From a virus, in the IMG/VR virus record IMGVR_UViG_3300031391_000006, positions 1 to 38,541 of that record: DNA of 38,541 nt. One strand, given 5' to 3'. A program made the translations under genes and the position numbers. Each line of letters starts with the position of its first letter. The first letter of the stretch is position 1. The notes under the pieces are model-generated. The model made no database searches. It saw only the letters and a list, made by a program, of their open reading frames with translations, and was not told the origin of the DNA. This document shows, one piece after another, positions 15,707-24,670 of the stretch.

Positions 15707-15740
15707 AAAAGCCTTGCCTTTCTATGGGGCAAGGCTTTTT
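15707..15740 (+). terminator. Terminator after the HeH-domain gene
   Basis: A 12-bp stem AAAAGCCTTGCC/GGCAAGGCTTTT (15707-15718, 15728-15739) ends in T5. The next gene starts at 15750, so a TTG-initiated frame beginning inside this hairpin was not used. Confidence 0.85.
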
Positions 15741-15749
15741 GTTGTCCAC

Positions 15750-16253
15750 ATGGCACTTGTAATTGAAGACGGGACAGGCAAAACAGACTCTAATTCCTTT
15801 GTGACGGCAGCGGAAGCAATCACGTATGCAGGGGACCGGGGGTTTAGTTTCCCATCGGTCACAGCGGATGTTGAAAAGCTGTTGATCAAAGCCTGTGATT
15901 TCATCCTTGGGCTTGAGAACAAATTCCAAGGACTGCGCACGGAGCAAAACCAGCGTATGCCTTTTCCGCGTGTCCGGGTGTTAATCTTCAACAATGTTGA
16001 CTACATCGCGTTTGACGAAATCCCGGAGCGCGTCAAGGAAGCACAAATGAGGTTTGCGGTGTCTGCCCATACCTCAGAGCTTCGCCCGGATGGCACAGGG
16101 CAAGAGGTTATCAATGAGAAGGTAGGACCCCTGCAAGTTCAGTATGCAGAGCGCGGCTCAGGATCAGTGACGCCACAATTTAATCAGGCAATGGATTTAA
16201 TCGCCCCATTTTTTGAAAATGAAGGTGGGCAACTCATTGTTGACCGGGCTTAA
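15750..16253 (+). CDS. Head-tail connector, DnaT-like family
   Basis: This 167-residue protein starts at the ATG at 15750 (MALVIEDGTGKTDSNSFVTA). The opening V-I-E-D-G-T-G-K-x-D-S-N-S-F-V-T followed by A-x-x-Y and repeated helices is the hallmark of the phage family labelled putative DnaT-like ssDNA-binding. Genomic position and structure generally make these gp6-like adaptor proteins below the portal. The segment R-M-P-F-P-R near 70 and the P-E-R-V-K-E-A-Q helix are typical. The following genes complete the neck. Confidence 0.8.
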   Translation: MALVIEDGTGKTDSNSFVTAAEAITYAGDRGFSFPSVTADVEKLLIKACDFILGLENKFQGLRTEQNQRMPFPRVRVLIFNNVDYIAFDEIPERVKEAQMRFAVSAHTSELRPDGTGQEVINEKVGPLQVQYAERGSGSVTPQFNQAMDLIAPFFENEGGQLIVDRA

Positions 16254-16256
16254 ATC

Positions 16257-16814
16257 ATGGCTTTTAATTACACACAAGCGGCGGCAACCGCCAAAAGACT
16301 GATTGCCAACTTCGGCGCGGTCGGAGAGATTCGTGCCTACAATGGTGTAATTGATGGTGTCACCGGATTAGTCACAGATGACTACTCAAAGACTGTGGCA
16401 ACCCTTGTGACAGTGCCTTCGGTTGATTCACTGATACGATTTGATGACACCTTTAAGGAGTCACTGGCGACTGGCAAAGCGCGGGTTTTCTTGGTTGCGG
16501 CAAGTGGTCTTGCTTTTGCACCAGAGCCGGGCAACTGCATTTTGCATGAAGGCAAGCTTTGGGAAATTGGCAGTGGTCCCGGTCAAGGTGGGGTGATGCC
16601 ATTGAATCCGGCAGGGACTGCGGTAATGTTTATTTGTGGGTGCATGTTAGGGGGGCGCAACCCAGATCCCATGAGTGCGTTCTCGGGTGAATCCCTCGAA
16701 CTTTTTGAGCATTACGGTGACACGCTGGAACAAATGTTTGCAGCGGGAGATCCGCTAAACCAGTTTGTTAATGTGGCTCTCCCACAGAGTTTTAAACTTA
16801 CCCAAAACCAGTAA
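16257..16814 (+). CDS. Head-closure (stopper-like) protein with appended 41-residue C-terminal module
   Basis: This 185-residue protein begins MAFNYTQAAATAKRLI. The N-terminal 125 residues have the opening helix and beta-barrel style of head-closure proteins (A-K-R-L-I-A-N-F-G-A-V-G-E-I-R-A-Y, then segments near V-A-T-L-V-T-V-P). The last 41 residues (16689-16814, E-L-F-E-H-Y-G-D-T-L-E-Q-M to the end) are closely similar to the C-terminus of the minor tail protein at 21859, with about 26 identical positions. The head domain should end before that module, so it looks like an added tag. Function of the core is assigned from position and fold pattern. Confidence 0.7.
   Translation: MAFNYTQAAATAKRLIANFGAVGEIRAYNGVIDGVTGLVTDDYSKTVATLVTVPSVDSLIRFDDTFKESLATGKARVFLVAASGLAFAPEPGNCILHEGKLWEIGSGPGQGGVMPLNPAGTAVMFICGCMLGGRNPDPMSAFSGESLELFEHYGDTLEQMFAAGDPLNQFVNVALPQSFKLTQNQ
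16689..16814 (+). repeat. C-terminal module, copy 1 (partner at 22237-22362)
   Basis: This is the matching module at the end of the head-closure protein. In both cases it is followed within 10 nt by the next gene start, so the segment behaves as a C-terminal unit attached to unrelated folds. Confidence 0.9.
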
Positions 16815-16820
16815 AAAGTA

Positions 16821-17276
16821 ATGAGTAGTTTTGCAGCAGATGTGAACAAATGGGCTGACAAGGCGATTAAGGAGTTTGACCAATTGCGGCGGGCGGTTAT
16901 TTTTGAACTCTTTTCTTCGGTTATACTAGATACCCCAGTTGCGGAAGGGCGCTTGCGCGGTAACTGGCAAGTTTCTTCAAGTGGTGCACCTTCTGGCACA
17001 GTTGACTTTGTGAAAACTTCAGCGGGTGTTGAGTCAAAATCAAGCAAAGAAGTAAAAAGCCCAAGCGGGCCGGTGTCCATCGGAAAGGTCAAAGCAGTTG
17101 AAAGGCTGGTTTTGGAGGGTAAACCGACAGTTGACCAAACGGTCTTTATGTCTAACAATTTGCCATACGCATATAAAATCGAATATGACGGATGGAGTCA
17201 CACCAAAGCCCCCAAAGGCATGGTCCGCAAAAACTTTATCCGGATTTCCCAAAACCTGAAAAAATTCAATGGCTGA
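16821..17276 (+). CDS. Neck / tail-completion protein, HK97 gp10-like
   Basis: This 151-residue protein begins MSSFAADVNKWADKAIK. The pattern A-V-I-F-E-L-F, then T-P-V-A-E-G-R-L-R-G-N-W-Q-V-S near 39-52, then S-N-N-L-P-Y-A-Y-K-I-E-Y-D-G-W-S and A-P-K-G-M-V-R, is the standard outline of HK97 gp10-like connectors that join tail to head. The stop overlaps the next gene by 8 nt. Confidence 0.8.
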   Translation: MSSFAADVNKWADKAIKEFDQLRRAVIFELFSSVILDTPVAEGRLRGNWQVSSSGAPSGTVDFVKTSAGVESKSSKEVKSPSGPVSIGKVKAVERLVLEGKPTVDQTVFMSNNLPYAYKIEYDGWSHTKAPKGMVRKNFIRISQNLKKFNG

Positions 17277-17697
17277 TACAGACGTAGAAAAAGCACTTTT
17301 GACAGCGGCCAAGAGCTTTCTTGATGCCAACGGCTTCACGGGTGCAATCAACTGGGAAAACAGCATTTTTGACCCAGCGGGAAAATCCAAGTGGGCAAGC
17401 GTTTTCTTTGTGCCTAATGTGCCGGATGTGCTCACACTTGGCACACAAGGTGATGACAGAATGACAGGGTTCTTGCAGATTGATTTGAACGTGCCACAAG
17501 GGACCGGGGGCGGGTCAATGAGACCTTGGCTTGACGCTTCCCGGCAAACGTTCGTTGCAGGCAAGACTTTCACACAATCAGGCCAAAAGGTCGCAGTAAT
17601 TTCAGCCGGGTGGGGGCAGGGTAGAAATGTTGACAACTGGTTCAGGAAGTCGTTAACTGTTGCTTTCCGTTCCGATTTACAAAGAGCCAATATCTAA
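17269..17697 (+). CDS. Tail terminator protein
   Basis: This 142-residue protein begins MADTDVEKALLTAAK. It matches the outline of the DUF4128/tail-terminator-like family: an N-terminal helix, W-E-N-S-I-F-D-P near 30, V-F-F-V-P-N-V-P, a G-F-L-Q-I-D-L-N-V-P strand at about 66-75 and a final strand T-V-A-F-R-S. It would cap the tail tube and bind the neck. Its position between gp10-like and tube genes is canonical. Confidence 0.8.
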   Translation: MADTDVEKALLTAAKSFLDANGFTGAINWENSIFDPAGKSKWASVFFVPNVPDVLTLGTQGDDRMTGFLQIDLNVPQGTGGGSMRPWLDASRQTFVAGKTFTQSGQKVAVISAGWGQGRNVDNWFRKSLTVAFRSDLQRANI

Positions 17698-17709
17698 CCA
17701 AAACACAAT

Positions 17710-18639
17710 ATGTCTGATTCAGCACGTCATAATCTTTTCCTTCTCGCAGAGTCCACTTACGGCACCACGCCGAGCTCAGATCCCGAGTTTGTTGACATTC
17801 GGCACACAGGCACAACCCTTGCGCTCACCAAAGAAGGCACTATTTCCGAAGAGCTACACTCAGACCGACAAATTCGTGACTCCCGGCACGGTGTCAAAGC
17901 AGTCGGTGGTGACATCAATTTTGAGCTTTCTTATGGCTCATTTGACACGTTGCTTGAGGCGGTCTTGCTCGGCACATGGTCAACCAATGTTTTGAAAGCA
18001 GGTGTCACTCGTCGCTCGTTCTCGATGCTTCGCCATTTCACAGACCAAGCTTCTGGTGACAAACCCTATCACCTGTTTAGCGGCATTGAACTCAACACGC
18101 TAAATCTAAATATCCCTGTTACAGGTCTTGTGACTGGATCTTTTGGGACACTTGGCAAGGGTCTGACTCTCTTAGGGGATCTTTCCACGCTGGGGACTCC
18201 TACTTTTACAGACCCAACCACAACAGCCCCTTTTGACGGCTTCACAGGGTCAATTACTGAGGGTGGCACAGCAACCTCAGTAGTCACAGCAATTGACCTG
18301 ACTCTGGCAAACGGCCTGGCACCTATCTACCACATCGGCAGTGACGAGACCTCTTTGCCATCGATTGGGCGTTGCACACTCAATGGCTCCATTACGGCGG
18401 TTTTTCAAAATGCGGCATTGTTTGATAAATTTGTCAATGAGACCGAGTCCGCTCTGGTTGTGACTCTGGAAGACCCAGCGGGCAATACTTATGAAATCAA
18501 TTTGCCTCGTATCAAATACAATGGTGGACAACCAGATGTTTCAGGCGAGGGGTCAATCGTTCTCACTCTGCCAATACAAGCGCTTTACAAAGTTTCGGAT
18601 TTGTCCAATATTGTGATCACACGCGCAAACGCTTCTTAA
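17710..18639 (+). CDS. Major tail tube protein
   Basis: This 309-residue protein begins MSDSARHNLFLLAESTYGTT. The opening (R-H-N-L-F-L-L-A-E-S-T-Y-G-T-T-P), R-Q-I-R-D-S-R-H-G-V and G-D-I-N-F-E-L-S-Y-G-S-F-D segments match the Phage_tube_2 family. The long beta-rich sequence suits a tube subunit plus a surface domain. A strong terminator follows, as expected for a highly produced structural protein. Confidence 0.85.
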   Translation: MSDSARHNLFLLAESTYGTTPSSDPEFVDIRHTGTTLALTKEGTISEELHSDRQIRDSRHGVKAVGGDINFELSYGSFDTLLEAVLLGTWSTNVLKAGVTRRSFSMLRHFTDQASGDKPYHLFSGIELNTLNLNIPVTGLVTGSFGTLGKGLTLLGDLSTLGTPTFTDPTTTAPFDGFTGSITEGGTATSVVTAIDLTLANGLAPIYHIGSDETSLPSIGRCTLNGSITAVFQNAALFDKFVNETESALVVTLEDPAGNTYEINLPRIKYNGGQPDVSGEGSIVLTLPIQALYKVSDLSNIVITRANAS

Positions 18640-18669
18640 AACTCTTCTCAGGGGTGAGATGATAGGGGG

Positions 18670-18705
18670 AACCCCACTACTGATTGCTCAGTAGTGGGGT
18701 TTTTT
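18670..18705 (+). terminator. Strong terminator after the tail tube gene
   Basis: A 14-bp perfect stem AACCCCACTACTGA/TCAGTAGTGGGGTT (18670-18683, 18688-18701) with loop TTGC runs into a T6-7 tract. It separates the tube gene from the tail-assembly genes. Confidence 0.92.
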
Positions 18706-18721
18706 CTGTTGCAATGCGGAT

Positions 18722-18735
18722 GAAAAACGTTCTTT
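18722..18735. promoter_or_regulatory. Degenerate palindrome-type operator before the tail chaperone
   Basis: The sequence GAAAAACGTTCTTT resembles the early-box palindrome but lacks the TTGAC partner. It lies 9 nt before the plus-strand start at 18745, where it could be a regulator site on a late gene or a chance A/T match. Confidence 0.35.
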
Positions 18736-18744
18736 GTTTGCAGC

Positions 18745-19176
18745 ATGAATGAAATGAACGAATTTTTTACACGCGACAAAGCCAATGAGGGTGTCGAAGT
18801 GCCTTTGTATTTACCCACGGGAGCCAAATCAAAACACTGGCTGAAACTGCTCGGTGTTGACTCAGGGGCATACACGCTTGCAACTGCACGGATGCGCCAA
18901 GCACTCCAAGGTATCCAAGCGGAAGCGGACAAGATCGAAGACAAAGAAGCCCGGTTTGTGTTTGTGAATGGCAAGCAAGAAGAGTGGAAAAACCGAGTCT
19001 TATCGGCCTGCATCTCCGCTTGGTCTTTTGAAGCCGAATGCACCGAAGCCGAGAAACTAAAATTTCTTGAGGCGGCGCCACAAATCGCAAACATAGTTGA
19101 CACTTTTATTGCAGACAGACGGCTTTTTTTCGGGATGGGGCAGACAAACTCGAAAGTTTCGCAAGAAGCGAAATAG
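18745..19176 (+). CDS. Tail assembly chaperone, short form
   Basis: This 143-residue protein begins MNEMNEFFTRDKANEG. It has the composition and position of the lambda gpG-type chaperone, between tube and tape measure. L-Y-L-P-T-G-A-K is near 20-27 and a helical C-terminus extends to F-F-G-M-G-Q. It would bind the tape measure during tail assembly. A slippery T-TTT-TTC at 19125-19131, in the correct phase, lets a fraction of ribosomes shift -1 into the downstream frame. Confidence 0.8.
   Translation: MNEMNEFFTRDKANEGVEVPLYLPTGAKSKHWLKLLGVDSGAYTLATARMRQALQGIQAEADKIEDKEARFVFVNGKQEEWKNRVLSACISAWSFEAECTEAEKLKFLEAAPQIANIVDTFIADRRLFFGMGQTNSKVSQEAK
19125..19131 (+). promoter_or_regulatory. Programmed -1 frameshift slippery site
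   Basis: The heptamer T TTT TTC lies in the zero frame of the chaperone (codons CTT TTT TTC). The -1 frame is open from here to 19466 and is the frame of the second chaperone segment. This is the usual site type for tail-chaperone frameshifting in siphoviruses. Confidence 0.8.
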
Positions 19177-19466
19177 AGCTTAGTCTGCCCATTGAAGGGG
19201 CCAAAGGATCAAAAAAGACACACCTGCTCAAAGCCTATAAACAGACAGGTGTGATACCGACAGAGTTGCAGGATCAGCCGGAGTGCCCGGAATACCTCGC
19301 TCATGTGTGGGGTTGGTTTGTCGAAATCCGCTCCGGGGGGTCTTACAGTTGGGCAGAGGTTGACGCTTGGGCACGGCTTAAAGGGGTGCAGTTGAGCGGC
19401 TATGATACAGAGTTGCTTTCTATGCTCAATGGCGTCTTTATGTCGGTAAATGGAAGATGTAACTAG
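19131..19466 (+). CDS. Tail assembly chaperone, frameshift extension (gpT-like)
   Basis: After a -1 shift at 19125-19131, translation continues R-D-G-A-D-K-L-E-S-F-A-R-S for 111 residues, making a fusion of about 240 residues. This segment contains Y-L-A-H-V-W-G-W-F-V-E and W-A-E-V-D-A-W-A-R-L, a Trp-rich helical pattern usual for the T part of G-T chaperones. It has no obvious start of its own except an internal GTG at 19251, and it overlaps the tape measure start by 17 nt. It is best read as the C-terminal part of the fusion, not a separate gene. Confidence 0.78.
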   Translation, partial: RDGADKLESFARSEIELSLPIEGAKGSKKTHLLKAYKQTGVIPTELQDQPECPEYLAHVWGWFVEIRSGGSYSWAEVDAWARLKGVQLSGYDTELLSMLNGVFMSVNGRCN

Positions 19467-21855
19467 CCTAGTTTTAAAAGTGGAGAGCAAGCAAGTCGGG
19501 AAAGCTTCTAAGGAGCTTGACGGACTGACAGGCGCGTCAAAGAAGACCGAAAAAGCAACAGACGGTGTAGTAGGTGCTTTTAAATCTCTGATCGCTCCTT
19601 TACTTGCGGTCATCTCGGCAACGGCGGCGCTCAAAAAGCTGGTGAGCATCACCAGAGAGTTTGACATCCTAAATGCTCAGTTGATCACTTCGACAGGATC
19701 GGCTGAAAATGCTGCAATTGCATTCGGCGCAATCCAAGATTTCGCCACTGAAACCCCCTTCCAACTCGGTGAGGTGACAGAGGCGTTCGTGCAACTAGTC
19801 AACCGGGGTCTTGACCCGTCTGAAGAGTCTTTGACCAATATAGGCAATTTCGCTTCGGCATTCGGGCGCAACATCCTTGATGCGACCCGCGCGATTGGGC
19901 AGGCGACCACAGGCGAGTTTGAGAGTCTTAAACAGTTTGGTATTGTCTCAAAAAAGATCGGTGACGAGGTGCGTTTTACTTTCAGAGGTATCACCACAAC
20001 GGTCGGTTTCAATGCTCAAGAGATTCAGGGTTACATGAATGATCTTTCGGCAAATAACTTTGCCGGGGCTATGGAAGCACGAATGGGCACGTTAGATGGT
20101 GCTTTGTCGAACATGGCAGACTCTTGGGACAAATTGTGGCTGACCATATCCACAGACAGCCCAATTGGGGACGCTATCGAGACAGTGGTTTTAAAAGGGA
20201 TTTCTTTCCTCGAAATGCTTGAGGAAAAAGTGAGGTCAATGTCTGGTGAAGAGACAAGGCCGCTGAGGGAAATTGTGGCTTCTTTTGATGCAGTCTCTGA
20301 GAGTATGGGAAATTTGGATACAATGGACCGGGCTTTTGCGTCCACTAACCGTTCATTCCGTAGTTTGCGCGAAGAGATCGAGAAGTTTTCAAAGGCTGAG
20401 ATAGATTTAGCGAGACAACAAAACGCGCTGGACACTGTTGAGGCAAGGGAATCGGCGCTAAAAGGGCTGACAAGGCTAAGAGGAGAAAGAGTATCTGAGT
20501 TTGCGGTGCGCAAAAAAGCCAGCGAGTCAGAACTGTCATCTCTTGCTGTTGAAAAAGCTTCTATTCAAGCAAAGATTCTCCTGTTGGAAACTGAGATTAC
20601 AAAACAAAGAGAAGCAAATGGGGTTAGTGACGACAGGTTAGAGCAGTTTATGAACTCAGGTGACCTCGGTGGCCCGACGGATGGCATGACTAAGGCTTTT
20701 GAGAAAATCAAAACGTCATTGCTCAATGAAGAAGACGCAATTGAGCACAGTTACCAAGCGCGGCGGGGAATCGTCACCGCCACGATGGAAGCCACCAATC
20801 AAGAACTTGCAAATATCACAGAGGCAAGAGCAGACATTTTAGCAGGTGACCAAACTGAGGATACACCGGAATACTTAAAAACGCTCAAGCTAAGAGAAGA
20901 AGAGGCGCAGGCGGTCTATGCCAAAGGAACAGAGACTTTAGCACTCCTAAAATCAGAGCGTGATTTAGCACTTTTTGACAGCGCACAAGAAAGCCCAGCA
21001 CTGACTCGGCTACAAGCAGAACTTGACGCAGAATATACAATCAGAGAGGAAGGGTTTCTTGAGCAAGAATTGCAGATTACAGATAAGTATGACCGTGACC
21101 TTGAACTTTTGGAAGAGTCCCTTGAAAACCAACACCTGACTAAGGAGAAATATTTGGAGCTTGAGAAAGCACTTGAGGAAAAGCAGACCAAAGACCTCGA
21201 AGCTCTCAAAAAGAAAGAGGCACTTGCGACGCAATCCGCAATGGCAAATCAAAACATAGCAATTTTGAGTAGCGCGGGGAGCCTTACATCTGATTTGCAA
21301 GGTTTAGCTGAAGAGGGCTCAAACGCTCAAAAGGCACTGTTTGCAGTTACCAAAGGGATTCAGATTGCACAGGCTATTTTAAGCACAGAGCTTGCGGCAA
21401 GACAAGCGGCGGCGGATCCGACAAACCCCACTTTCTTTGGTAAGATTGCGGCTTCAACGGCGATTCGCGCCCTCGGTTACGCTTCAGTCGGTGTAATGGC
21501 AGGCACGGCAATCGGCAGCTTCGCAGAGGGTGGCATAGTGCCGGGTGGCAACTTTAACGGCGATGGTGTGACAGCAAACGTGAACAGTGGGGAAATGATT
21601 TTGAACTTCTCACAGCAAAAACAACTGCTCAACATGGCAAGTGGTAGCTCGCAAGGTGGCGCTGCAAAGCCGGCAGTCATTAACATTGAGAATTTTGGGG
21701 GTGGTGCGGTTGAGGTCCAAGAGTCCGAAACGGACAATGAACAAATCATCAACATTGCGGTAAACCGGGCAGTGTCTAGGGTGGACAACAGCATAATGAC
21801 CGGGCAGGGTAGCACAAACAGAGCCTTGAAACAGTATGACAGGCGCAGGGCATAA
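19450..21855 (+). CDS. Tape measure protein
   Basis: This 801-residue protein begins MEDVTSLVLKVESKQVGKAS, the usual N-terminal form for tail-length rulers. Residues about 75-230 hold the tape-measure core (F-A-T-E-T-P-F-Q-L-G-E-V, then A-T-T-G-E-F-E-S-L-K-Q-F-G-I near 151-164). Long helical coiled-coil stretches occupy about 280-640, and hydrophobic segments lie at about 615-700. The C-terminus has F-A-E-G-G-I-V-P-G-G, typical of such proteins. Using the family rule of about 0.15 nm per residue, the tail would be near 120 nm. It is the longest tail gene after the tip protein. Confidence 0.9.
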   Translation: MEDVTSLVLKVESKQVGKASKELDGLTGASKKTEKATDGVVGAFKSLIAPLLAVISATAALKKLVSITREFDILNAQLITSTGSAENAAIAFGAIQDFATETPFQLGEVTEAFVQLVNRGLDPSEESLTNIGNFASAFGRNILDATRAIGQATTGEFESLKQFGIVSKKIGDEVRFTFRGITTTVGFNAQEIQGYMNDLSANNFAGAMEARMGTLDGALSNMADSWDKLWLTISTDSPIGDAIETVVLKGISFLEMLEEKVRSMSGEETRPLREIVASFDAVSESMGNLDTMDRAFASTNRSFRSLREEIEKFSKAEIDLARQQNALDTVEARESALKGLTRLRGERVSEFAVRKKASESELSSLAVEKASIQAKILLLETEITKQREANGVSDDRLEQFMNSGDLGGPTDGMTKAFEKIKTSLLNEEDAIEHSYQARRGIVTATMEATNQELANITEARADILAGDQTEDTPEYLKTLKLREEEAQAVYAKGTETLALLKSERDLALFDSAQESPALTRLQAELDAEYTIREEGFLEQELQITDKYDRDLELLEESLENQHLTKEKYLELEKALEEKQTKDLEALKKKEALATQSAMANQNIAILSSAGSLTSDLQGLAEEGSNAQKALFAVTKGIQIAQAILSTELAARQAAADPTNPTFFGKIAASTAIRALGYASVGVMAGTAIGSFAEGGIVPGGNFNGDGVTANVNSGEMILNFSQQKQLLNMASGSSQGGAAKPAVINIENFGGGAVEVQESETDNEQIINIAVNRAVSRVDNSIMTGQGSTNRALKQYDRRRA

Positions 21856-21858
21856 ACA

Positions 21859-22362
21859 ATGACTACTACAATCACATACCCGGCGCAGCTCCCGAAACCG
21901 TCCGCTCGATACTCATTCACGAAGGAAGATGGTGCGATTACTACAAAATTTCAATCCGGCAAGACACGGCGGCGCAATGCTTACAACGACCTGCGCCGGG
22001 AGGTCTCTTTGCAGTGGGAGTTTTCGCAGCGTGAGCTAGACTTTTTCCAAAGCTGGTATTCATACACGCTCAACAATGGGGCCGAAAACTTCCTTACTGA
22101 TTTGCTCCTTGATGCAGACAGCTACCAAAATTACGAAGTCACTCCAATGGGCGACATTAAAGTGACCCATTTTGGGGTAGGTTACTTTAAAGTGAGCTTA
22201 AAAGTGCTTTGTCTCGCTCAAAAATACCTTTCCGCTGAAGCTGTCGAACTGTTTCAGCACTACGGTGACACTTTTGAAGAAATGCTTGCAACAGGCGACC
22301 CTCTCAATCAGTTTATAAATGTGACTCTACCAACAAATTTTCAACTACTCGAAAACCAATAA
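21859..22362 (+). CDS. Minor tail protein with the same appended C-terminal module
   Basis: This 167-residue protein begins MTTTITYPAQLPKPSARYS. The N-terminal 125 residues (Y-P-A-Q-L-P-K-P-S, then T-R-R-R-N-A-Y-N-D-L, then F-S-Q-R-E-L-D-F-F-Q-S-W-Y and F-K-V-S-L-K) match a common phage tail family placed after the tape measure, in the position of lambda gpM. The last 41 residues (22237-22362) duplicate the module at the end of the head-closure protein (16689-16814). The usual family would end near the F-K-V-S-L-K strand, so the module is extra. Confidence 0.75.
   Translation: MTTTITYPAQLPKPSARYSFTKEDGAITTKFQSGKTRRRNAYNDLRREVSLQWEFSQRELDFFQSWYSYTLNNGAENFLTDLLLDADSYQNYEVTPMGDIKVTHFGVGYFKVSLKVLCLAQKYLSAEAVELFQHYGDTFEEMLATGDPLNQFINVTLPTNFQLLENQ
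22237..22362 (+). repeat. C-terminal module, copy 2 (partner at 16689-16814)
   Basis: The two 126-nt segments encode 41 residues each, with about 26 identical (63% by hand count). Shared cores are H-Y-G-D-T, G-D-P-L-N-Q-F and a final N-Q, and both stop at the same residue. The DNA differs at many synonymous sites, so this is an old duplication or a common acquisition. Confidence 0.9.
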
Positions 22363-22367
22363 AACAG

Positions 22368-24095
22368 ATGCCTACTTTACTCGAAACAGTTCAATCGGTT
22401 GTAACACTCTTAGAGGCCAACGAAGCAAGGGTGGCGGATTGGGTCAACGGGGACGCTTCGGCGGAATACACAACCACTGACTCAGTAGCTGTGCCATCAA
22501 TCCGCAAATTTCTTGCCCAGACTTTCCTTTGGCAAGGTGAATACACACCGGGTGGCACTGTTTATGTGCTCGGCCACACTTTTAAAAATGGCTACATAGC
22601 CTACCGGGTGACAACAAGTTTTACGTCAACCACTTTTGCGGCAGACTCGGTAAACTACGAAGTTTTGTTTGACTTATCTGATGTTGTAGCTGACGCGGAG
22701 ACCGCAAAGACGGCGGCGGAGCTTGCAGAGACCAACGCTGAGACCGCAAAGACGGCGGCGGAGCTTGCAGAGACCAACGCTGAGACCGCTGAAACTGGCG
22801 CAGTTGCGGCGCAAGCAGCGGCACAATCAGCTTTGGTAACAAAAGCATCTGCCGCCGGTAAGGCCCTGCAAGTCGCTGACACTATCGACATCAGCACACT
22901 GCCCACGATCACGGACGACTTTGCCCTCGTAGTTACAGCATCCACTGGCATCCGTATCAGCGGCACAGATACCACTATCGAGGTCAATGCGGGCGACATC
23001 TCTGTCACCCTTGGCGCGACAACTCGCACCTACACCGCGACCATCGCAGGCCGTGCCAAGGTGGCACTCACCCGCACAGGCACTGCCCTGAGTGTTTACG
23101 TAAACGGCGTGTCCACAGGAGCCAGCCAAGTGCTATTTGGCGATGTTAATCTTGATACGGTATCGACTGTCGCAGCAGGCGCGATCATCTCAGGCATGGC
23201 TCTGTATAATACCTCGCTAACAGGCACGCAGATTGCCGCGATTACAACATACGGGGTGCCGAGTTGGTTGGCTCAAAATCCTGTTAATCAATGGGGTAGT
23301 TTAATTTATTCTAGCGACTTTACAGTCAACGGCGATTCTTTTTCTTCTTCAAACAACGACTTTACTTTTAGCGACAACGCATGGAACTATAAAGCGGACA
23401 GCGACAGTTCACTGCTCCGCTCCGTTGGGCTAGTAGCAGGTCAATCTGTCCGATTGGTGATTACTAGCAGCGGAGGCACCGTGCGTCTGGCCTGTATCCA
23501 GAACGCATCTGTTGGTCTATTTGTTGGAAATAGTGCGATTGACACATTTACACTGACTGATGGTGAGACGGTTTTTGAAGGAGTTGTATCTAGTGGGACT
23601 GATGGTGTAATCAATATCCGTGGGCTGACTGAGGGTGGTGCTTTTGCGATAACCGCGATTGAAGTAACGAGATTAGGCGCGGTTGCATCATTGCCACTAA
23701 CAGAGGGCAACGGCGCACAGCACCGCGATCTATCAACTAATCGCTACGATGCGCTTGCCAGCCTGACCGACGGGCACCTAGCACCGCGAGACTTTGGCAA
23801 TATCCGCGTCATTAACGTCGATGGTTCCGCAGATTCATTTCCGTTCGGGGACGTTATTACGCTCAGTCCTTACACCATCATCACAGGGGTCATCGTCGAT
23901 AATCGCTACATACCCGTGGACTCGACCGTAGAGCAAAATTTAAGCTACCGCGAAATCCACATCGAAGTGAGCGGCGGGACTGACATCATCCAGCGCTCCG
24001 ACGGCACAACTCATCAGGATTTAGTCACGATCACAGCGACCACTCAGTCCGATTTTGACCTAACAATACTCACCCAACGTGGAGGCAACCTATAA
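22368..24095 (+). CDS. Tail fibre / receptor-binding protein
   Basis: This 575-residue protein begins MPTLLETVQSVVTLL. The N-terminal 110 residues resemble a baseplate-attachment domain. Residues about 107-150 are an Ala/Glu/Thr repeat coiled-coil neck, including a 14-residue unit repeated exactly. Residues about 160-305 look like a concanavalin/LamG-type jelly roll (A-L-V-V-T-A-S-T-G-I near 185-194, then R-T-G-T-A-L-S-V-Y-V-N-G-V-S near 235-248, the common ligand-binding core). The C-terminal half is beta-rich. Base and codon usage from about 22.85 kb on are more C-rich than neighbouring genes, suggesting domain exchange. The stop overlaps the next start. Confidence 0.75.
   Translation: MPTLLETVQSVVTLLEANEARVADWVNGDASAEYTTTDSVAVPSIRKFLAQTFLWQGEYTPGGTVYVLGHTFKNGYIAYRVTTSFTSTTFAADSVNYEVLFDLSDVVADAETAKTAAELAETNAETAKTAAELAETNAETAETGAVAAQAAAQSALVTKASAAGKALQVADTIDISTLPTITDDFALVVTASTGIRISGTDTTIEVNAGDISVTLGATTRTYTATIAGRAKVALTRTGTALSVYVNGVSTGASQVLFGDVNLDTVSTVAAGAIISGMALYNTSLTGTQIAAITTYGVPSWLAQNPVNQWGSLIYSSDFTVNGDSFSSSNNDFTFSDNAWNYKADSDSSLLRSVGLVAGQSVRLVITSSGGTVRLACIQNASVGLFVGNSAIDTFTLTDGETVFEGVVSSGTDGVINIRGLTEGGAFAITAIEVTRLGAVASLPLTEGNGAQHRDLSTNRYDALASLTDGHLAPRDFGNIRVINVDGSADSFPFGDVITLSPYTIITGVIVDNRYIPVDSTVEQNLSYREIHIEVSGGTDIIQRSDGTTHQDLVTITATTQSDFDLTILTQRGGNL
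22698..22781 (+). repeat. Exact 42-bp tandem duplication in the fibre neck
   Basis: Two identical 42-bp units (22698-22739 and 22740-22781) encode E-T-A-K-T-A-A-E-L-A-E-T-N-A twice, extending a coiled-coil neck. Perfect identity at the DNA level means the duplication is recent or kept by slippage, so its copy number may vary. Confidence 0.95.
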
Positions 24096-24670
24096 TGCAA
24101 ATCGTATCAGCAAATCTTAATCACCTAATCTACAGCAAGGGACACCCTACACAGGTGTTTACCGCGCCGTTGCCATTCGCCCCCGAGGACGACGCAACGC
24201 TACTAGCATGGGATCAGGAGACGCACACGCTCTCCTATAGCGTCCCCCCCGAAGCTGAGGACGGAGAGCCCACGCTGATTGACCGCGTGATAACGCAGGC
24301 TGAAATTGATGCGGGTGCAGCTTCATTCCAGCCAACACTGGAAGAACTCAAAGCAGCAAAGATTCGACAATTAAAGCAAGAGCGTGATGCCGCTTGGCAA
24401 GGTGATTTAATGACAAGCTTTGGAGTCCCGTTTCACACCGACATTCAGACGCAAATCGACATCCAGATGATACTTCAGATGCTTGACCCGTTGGAAGTCT
24501 TCTCAGGTTACAAGTGCGCTGATGGTGTTCGCCGCGACCTGACACGCGAGCAGTTTGCTCTGGCACTAAACGAAGGTGTCGTGCGTAAAGTTACAGCCTT
24601 TGCAGTGGAGGGTGCAAAACTCACAGCAGTTGAAGCAGCAACCACAGCCGAGGAACTGGCAGCTATCTAA
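24095..24670 (+). CDS. Tail fibre associated protein, DUF4376-like
   Basis: This 191-residue protein begins MQIVSANLNHLIYSKG. The C-terminal half is helical: K-I-R-Q-L-K-Q-E-R-D-A-A-W at about 88-100, then G-V-P-F-H-T-D, Q-T-Q-I-D-I-Q and R-R-D-L-T. This matches the DUF4376-type fibre-chaperone or tail-associated domain found after fibre genes. It is translationally coupled to the fibre (TAATG). The codon usage, rich in C-ending codons, resembles the fibre and suggests they move together. Confidence 0.7.
   Translation: MQIVSANLNHLIYSKGHPTQVFTAPLPFAPEDDATLLAWDQETHTLSYSVPPEAEDGEPTLIDRVITQAEIDAGAASFQPTLEELKAAKIRQLKQERDAAWQGDLMTSFGVPFHTDIQTQIDIQMILQMLDPLEVFSGYKCADGVRRDLTREQFALALNEGVVRKVTAFAVEGAKLTAVEAATTAEELAAI

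Follow-up and report, generated by a model that had tools for sequence, protein, structure and literature searches.

Two structural proteins encoded in the window (the whole 38,541-nucleotide stretch of viral DNA analysed here), the stopper of the neck and the distal tail protein (DTP) of the tail tip, end in the same C-terminal module. Comparison with related loci shows that the DTP tail was duplicated onto the stopper, in one direction only, and we consider this duplication real. By a narrow preference, we read the module as a ring-side fibre-docking adaptor that was transplanted to the neck ring to display the same fibre there. That a duplicated adaptor on the neck ring lets one fibre gene supply receptor-binding appendages at both tail ends is, in our judgment, close to an even call. 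The features involved are as follows.

15714–16253, plus strand: head-tail adaptor Ad1, which sets the stopper in the neck (phrog_477, E 6e-44)
16257–16682, plus strand: stopper body (Hc1), residues 1–142 (phrog_161, PDB 10lj, T1 stopper fold)
16683–16814, plus strand: module copy 1, the C-terminal end of the stopper, residues 143–185 plus stop (27/42 residues the same as in copy 2)
19450–21855, plus strand: tape measure protein, directly before the DTP (phrog_1538, E 9.9e-57)
21859–22230, plus strand: DTP/Dit body, residues 1–124 (phrog_384; Sf11 DTP and lambda gpM folds)
22231–22362, plus strand: module copy 2, residues 125–167 plus stop, native C-terminal tail of the DTP (tails of L024, L034 and HD01; full-length profiles)
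22368–24095, plus strand: candidate docking partner, a 575-residue fibre with an N-terminal anchor in residues 1–52 (anchor profiles)

A shared module on two unrelated proteins

The last 42–43 residues of the head-closure protein (16257–16814) and of the protein encoded after the tape measure (21859–22362) align without a gap up to the stop, with 27/41, 27/42 or 28/43 identical residues depending on the length taken (64% identity), and both open reading frames run as initially annotated. The pair reaches a similarity score of 163, against a maximum of 51 in 5000 shuffles. At the DNA level, 96/132 bases are identical, and identity by codon position is highest at position 2 and lowest at position 3 (31, 41 and 27 of 45 for positions 1, 2 and 3). 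The copies differ by 17 synonymous changes over 28 sites and 17 nonsynonymous changes over 101 sites (Fisher P 1.2e-5), with a synonymous divergence of about 1.2. Because of these codon-position and substitution patterns, the likeness is a protein-level and old one. The pattern of DNA change reflects protein-level constraint, of which the share acting on the stopper copy is not cleanly separable from that acting on the DTP copy. The best-kept part between the copies is a core of HYGDT, GDPLNQF and NV.LP.

The suggestion that no named domain covers the module was borne out, as Pfam and NCBIfam gave no match on either protein. Searched alone, the module likewise had no significant match in Pfam, PHROGs or annotated phages. 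Matches to the scaffolding family phrog_2592 (E 0.15–0.33) were taken as chance.

The product of 16257–16814 is the head closure protein Hc1, or stopper, by family, fold and gene place. Its residues 3–128 match phrog_161, head closure Hc1 (E 1.1e-4), and its profile finds the stopper gp12 of PDB 10lj (E 1.3e-10). A Foldseek search with the stopper model returned nothing below 0.001, and the fold was settled by the sequence profile together with VIA-align, which superimposed the AF2 model on the T1 stopper (9l0e_A) with Z 9.0 and rmsd 3.2 over 103 residues. With phrog_477 upstream and phrog_169 and phrog_179 downstream, the gene lies between the adaptor Ad1 and the neck/terminator genes.

For the product of 21859–22362, the predicted beta-sandwich fold and the gene place identify a distal tail protein. 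In VIA-align, its model matches the Sf11 DTP gp17 (9occ_D) with Z 13.6 over 120 residues at 2.4 Å (model residues 3–123), followed by lambda gpM (8iyk_E; Z 9.6) and the further Dit folds of DT57C (Z 8.2), T1 (8.0) and T5 (7.5). The core ends at residue 123–124, exactly where the module starts; lambda gpM (109 residues) and the T1 DTP (116 residues in the solved chain) have nothing at the module position. Model confidence is about 60–90 pLDDT in the DTP body and below 50 over most of the module in both the DTP and the stopper AF2 models. The order of tape measure gene followed by DTP gene recurs in L024, L034, Donnerlittchen, JeffCo and HD01. The bodies of the two parents are unrelated, just as the initial annotation held, and only the module is common to them.

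The accompanying expectation that both parent families end before the module stood for one parent only. Window stopper residues 3–128 are all that phrog_161 covers, and the family members examined stop ahead of the module. In contrast, the DTP family continues through it: phrog_384 matches window DTP residues 1–161, most of the module included, and the DTPs of L024, L034 and HD01 extend likewise. This family, a 393-position profile, is labelled only 'virion structural protein, head and packaging', and the tail is not described there. The module thus belongs to the ordinary fold of the DTP family and not to that of the stopper family.

In the phages pVco-14 (L018:2977–3869) and STP12 (L015:2992–3845), two DTP-like genes stand in succession with the tail on the second only, so that ring and docking functions may be divided between them.

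Direction of the copy

Both module genes are also present on contigs L004 and L005, which come from two other metagenomes, so the pair is not an assembly artefact of a single contig. In L006, the head-closure protein is 95% identical, module included, and keeps frame, length and stop, with its Hc1 body at dS 0.46 from that of the window. The syntenic relatives L024 and L034 (IMG/VR contigs) encode DTPs 56% and 63% identical to the window's, both with the module, and stoppers (75% and about 39% identical, respectively) without it; the L034 stopper has an unrelated end of 20-odd residues instead. The stopper of L007, 80% identical, terminates in ...GGRDPNAGSEV, just short of the module start position, and the neck genes adjoining the stopper in L007 and L024 are close relatives of the window's as well. 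Among isolates, Acinetobacter phage HD01 has a DTP that ends in a related tail (...FGEDYANIFARTESKLHYIVNVTMPSHYHD), whose score against window copy 2 is reached by 0 of 5000 shuffles. Because DTP orthologues carry the module and Hc1 orthologues lack it, the module is how DTPs of this branch normally end, and the copy on the stopper is secondary.

Across about 100 loci compared, a stopper with the module occurs only in the window lineage and in L006. The profile search proposed earlier, which was to list the domains that the module follows, yielded two carriers, stopper and DTP, and no third kind of protein among these loci. When DTP tails were scored against the other open reading frames of their own loci, no further sharing emerged: the window pair scored 163 and the runner-up, the JeffCo DTP tail against the JeffCo tape measure, 50, which is chance level. 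Searches with the module profile in IMG/VR and with DTP profiles in GTDB genomes gave no occurrence beyond near relatives. In a tree of the module copies, the distances do not separate the phage's own DTP from a relative's DTP as source of copy 1. The window DTP is nearer to L034 in its body and nearer to L024 in its module, which would suggest a module that follows the fibre, but the differences are not significant (P 0.27 and 0.11).

Window and L006 differ at 3 of 205 bases over the stopper module (16632–16836; P 1e-9) between flanks that are 11–17% diverged, which would fit a recombinational exchange of the module end. Further low-divergence patches between the two lie nearby, at 17250–17369 and from 17610 onward. 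In L034 (5565–6137), the DTP runs about 24 residues beyond the module (SWLLTTGFWEDSGNWDDTDVWID), and the gene that follows does not encode the usual fibre anchor.

Likeness to the spike-docking adaptor of Sf11

The DTP of Shigella siphophage Sf11, gp17, uses a helical adaptor to bind the three N-terminal helices of the tailspike gp13 (PDB 9OCC; PMC12724387), with contacts between gp17 Glu129, Glu136, Glu147 and Glu152 and gp13 Arg16 and Lys19 (PMC12724387). The window's DTP family profile matches gp17 (9OCC chain C) over 7–159 of 162 positions, spanning the module, and all four docking glutamates fall within the gp17 stretch aligned to it. Two of them lie in LDEVVNRELP, the counterpart of LNQFINVTLP in the window DTP, and the two proteins have an L-D/N-x-x-V-N-x-x-L-P core in common. 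When the DTP groups of the window, the enterobacterial phages and Sf11 are compared as profiles, the alignments cover the whole length, tail included (E 2.9e-8 to 1e-16); for the window DTP and the Sf11 gp17 family, full-length profiles pair columns 3–155 with 4–160 (E 2.9e-8). For the tail stretch taken alone, profiles give E 0.0049 (DTP set) and 0.11 (stopper copy) against the Sf11 adaptor, and the pairwise scores are equalled or exceeded in 61 and 332 of 5000 shuffles, respectively. Since the tail by itself is too short for significance, the equivalence of module and adaptor rests on its position within the significant full-length alignment.

The likeness to Sf11 comprises the DTP fold, the place after the tape measure, a C-terminal stretch past the beta-sandwich and the anchor superfamily of the partner. 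Unlike the window DTP, gp17 continues into an extra domain of roughly 290 residues. The Sf11-type salt bridges of Glu147/Glu152 to Lys19 are not kept; in the window, the DTP carries Q and T and the fibre carries E. As these residues differ, we propose that the window adaptor works like that of Sf11 and not with the same contacts. The Sf11 neck could not be resolved in PMC12724387. In the Sf11 genome (L117, MF158038.1; 19304–20020), the label given to gp24 is 'putative neck whiskers protein', whereas PMC12724387 describes gp24 as the tail tube protein.

A candidate fibre partner

The fibre gene directly follows the DTP gene. Its first 107 residues are 55% identical to those of the L024 fibre and the remainder is diverged apart from one weaker match, a pattern resembling that of host-binding proteins. 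The N-terminal anchor (NEARVADWVNGD..YTT...VPSIRKFL) is common to the fibres or spikes of L024, L031, Donnerlittchen, HD01 and Agrobacterium and Rhizobium phages. In hhalign, the anchor profile matches enterobacterial fibre N-termini (E 2.7e-7), these match the family of the Sf11 gp13 N-terminus (E 6e-8), and the anchor matches Sf11 gp13 (residues 4–59) directly (E 8.6e-5); thirteen control profiles all gave E 0.11–0.72. Pairwise, the anchor and gp13 are not significantly alike, and the likeness is seen by profiles only. On these comparisons, the fibre anchor and the N-terminus of tailspike gp13 can be placed in one profile superfamily. Within the window, only one open reading frame bears the anchor. 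In L034, the DTP carries the module, yet the gene after it is without the anchor.

At the positions equivalent to Glu152 and Lys19, the pairs in six phages are E/K in Sf11, D/K in L031 and Donnerlittchen, T/E in the window and HD01, and T/V in L024. The enterobacterial set breaks the pairing, with E opposite L. Coming from about three independent lineages, this covariation is only suggestive. The open reading frame after the fibre gene (24095–24670) matches DUF4376 (Pfam) in its residues 84–189.

Proposed docking at the tip and at the neck

We propose the following arrangement. In the tail-tip ring, the module would form a short helical tail of the DTP beyond its beta-sandwich body and hold the N-terminal anchor of a presumably trimeric host-binding fibre from the next gene, like Sf11 gp17 with gp13. 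In the window lineage, the stopper gene would have received, at its 3' end, a copy of the 3' end of such a DTP gene. About six extra docking sites would thereby be added to the stopper ring of the neck, with copy numbers taken from T1 and Sf11; in T1, the stopper and distal tail protein rings are both hexamers (PMC11945409). The same fibre would then probably be displayed as neck appendages. The tip half of this proposal is supported by the homology that both sides of the interface show to their Sf11 counterparts, and from the duplication we infer the neck half. The earlier idea of a portable interaction tag at both tail ends is kept as the best reading, with the amendment that the module is not foreign to both of its parents.

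Lactococcal phage TP901-1 offers the nearest precedent, as the N-terminus of its neck appendage NPS resembles that of the tip protein BppU (PMC4493119, PMC10747895), so that there, too, homology links a part that docks at the tip with a part of the neck, and appendages occur at both tail ends. In TP901-1, however, the shared domain lies on the appendages, at the N-termini of NPS and BppU, near the portal-adaptor junction, whereas in the window it lies on the ring proteins. According to PMC10747895, it is not known how the TP901-1 neck fibres are attached, and in the papers searched we found no ring-side description of a gene-fusion route to neck fibres. A predicted model of TP901-1 places the C-terminal end of the stopper in contact with the tail terminator (PMC10747895), so that a stopper extension must find a way outward.

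The same contact could be turned around. The module might be a real DTP tail that binds, instead of a fibre, some common partner in the tail body or in assembly (terminator, tube or tape measure), and on the stopper it would firm the neck–tail joint. The Sf11 salt-bridge residues missing in the window and the presence of the module in L034, where no anchor-bearing fibre adjoins, fit this alternative as well. We nevertheless think it unlikely: the solved Sf11 homologue uses the stretch for spike docking (PMC12724387), the DTP chains of lambda and T1 (109–116 residues) do without the module, and so do the L007 and L024 stoppers (75–80% identical), despite closely related neighbouring neck genes.

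Docking of the same fibre at both rings must further be weighed against two accounts that concern the stopper copy alone. Its restriction to the window lineage and L006, and the low-divergence tract over it, which may reflect spread by recombination, would suit a functionless recombination accident tolerated as an overhang at a protein end. Nonsynonymous changes per site are far rarer than synonymous ones (P 1e-5), though, and a synonymous divergence near 1.2 makes the copy old yet intact; L006, too, keeps frame, length and stop despite the divergence of its Hc1 body, and we hold an accident to be distinctly improbable. Least plausible to us is that the stopper module docks an appendage other than the one held by the DTP module, such as a neck fibre of its own: the copies have diverged to 64% identity, as docking parts for different partners might, but the window has a single anchor-bearing open reading frame and the HYGDT, GDPLNQF and NV.LP core is what the copies conserve most.

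The origin of neck-sited appendages is poorly understood. If docking at both rings is true, a 43-residue tail suffices to shift a fibre-docking site between virion rings, and a DTP tail on a stopper would be a sequence signature for predicting neck fibres from genomes. The proposal also gives a putative function to the C-terminal tail of a broad family labelled just 'virion structural protein'. Among the contigs compared, the start of L007 holds, in the third frame, an open reading frame with ...VYNLETDSGLVNCNGVVTHNC|RSTTV..., which, judged by eye, resembles an intein's C-terminal end and may lie within a Mu F-like minor head protein.
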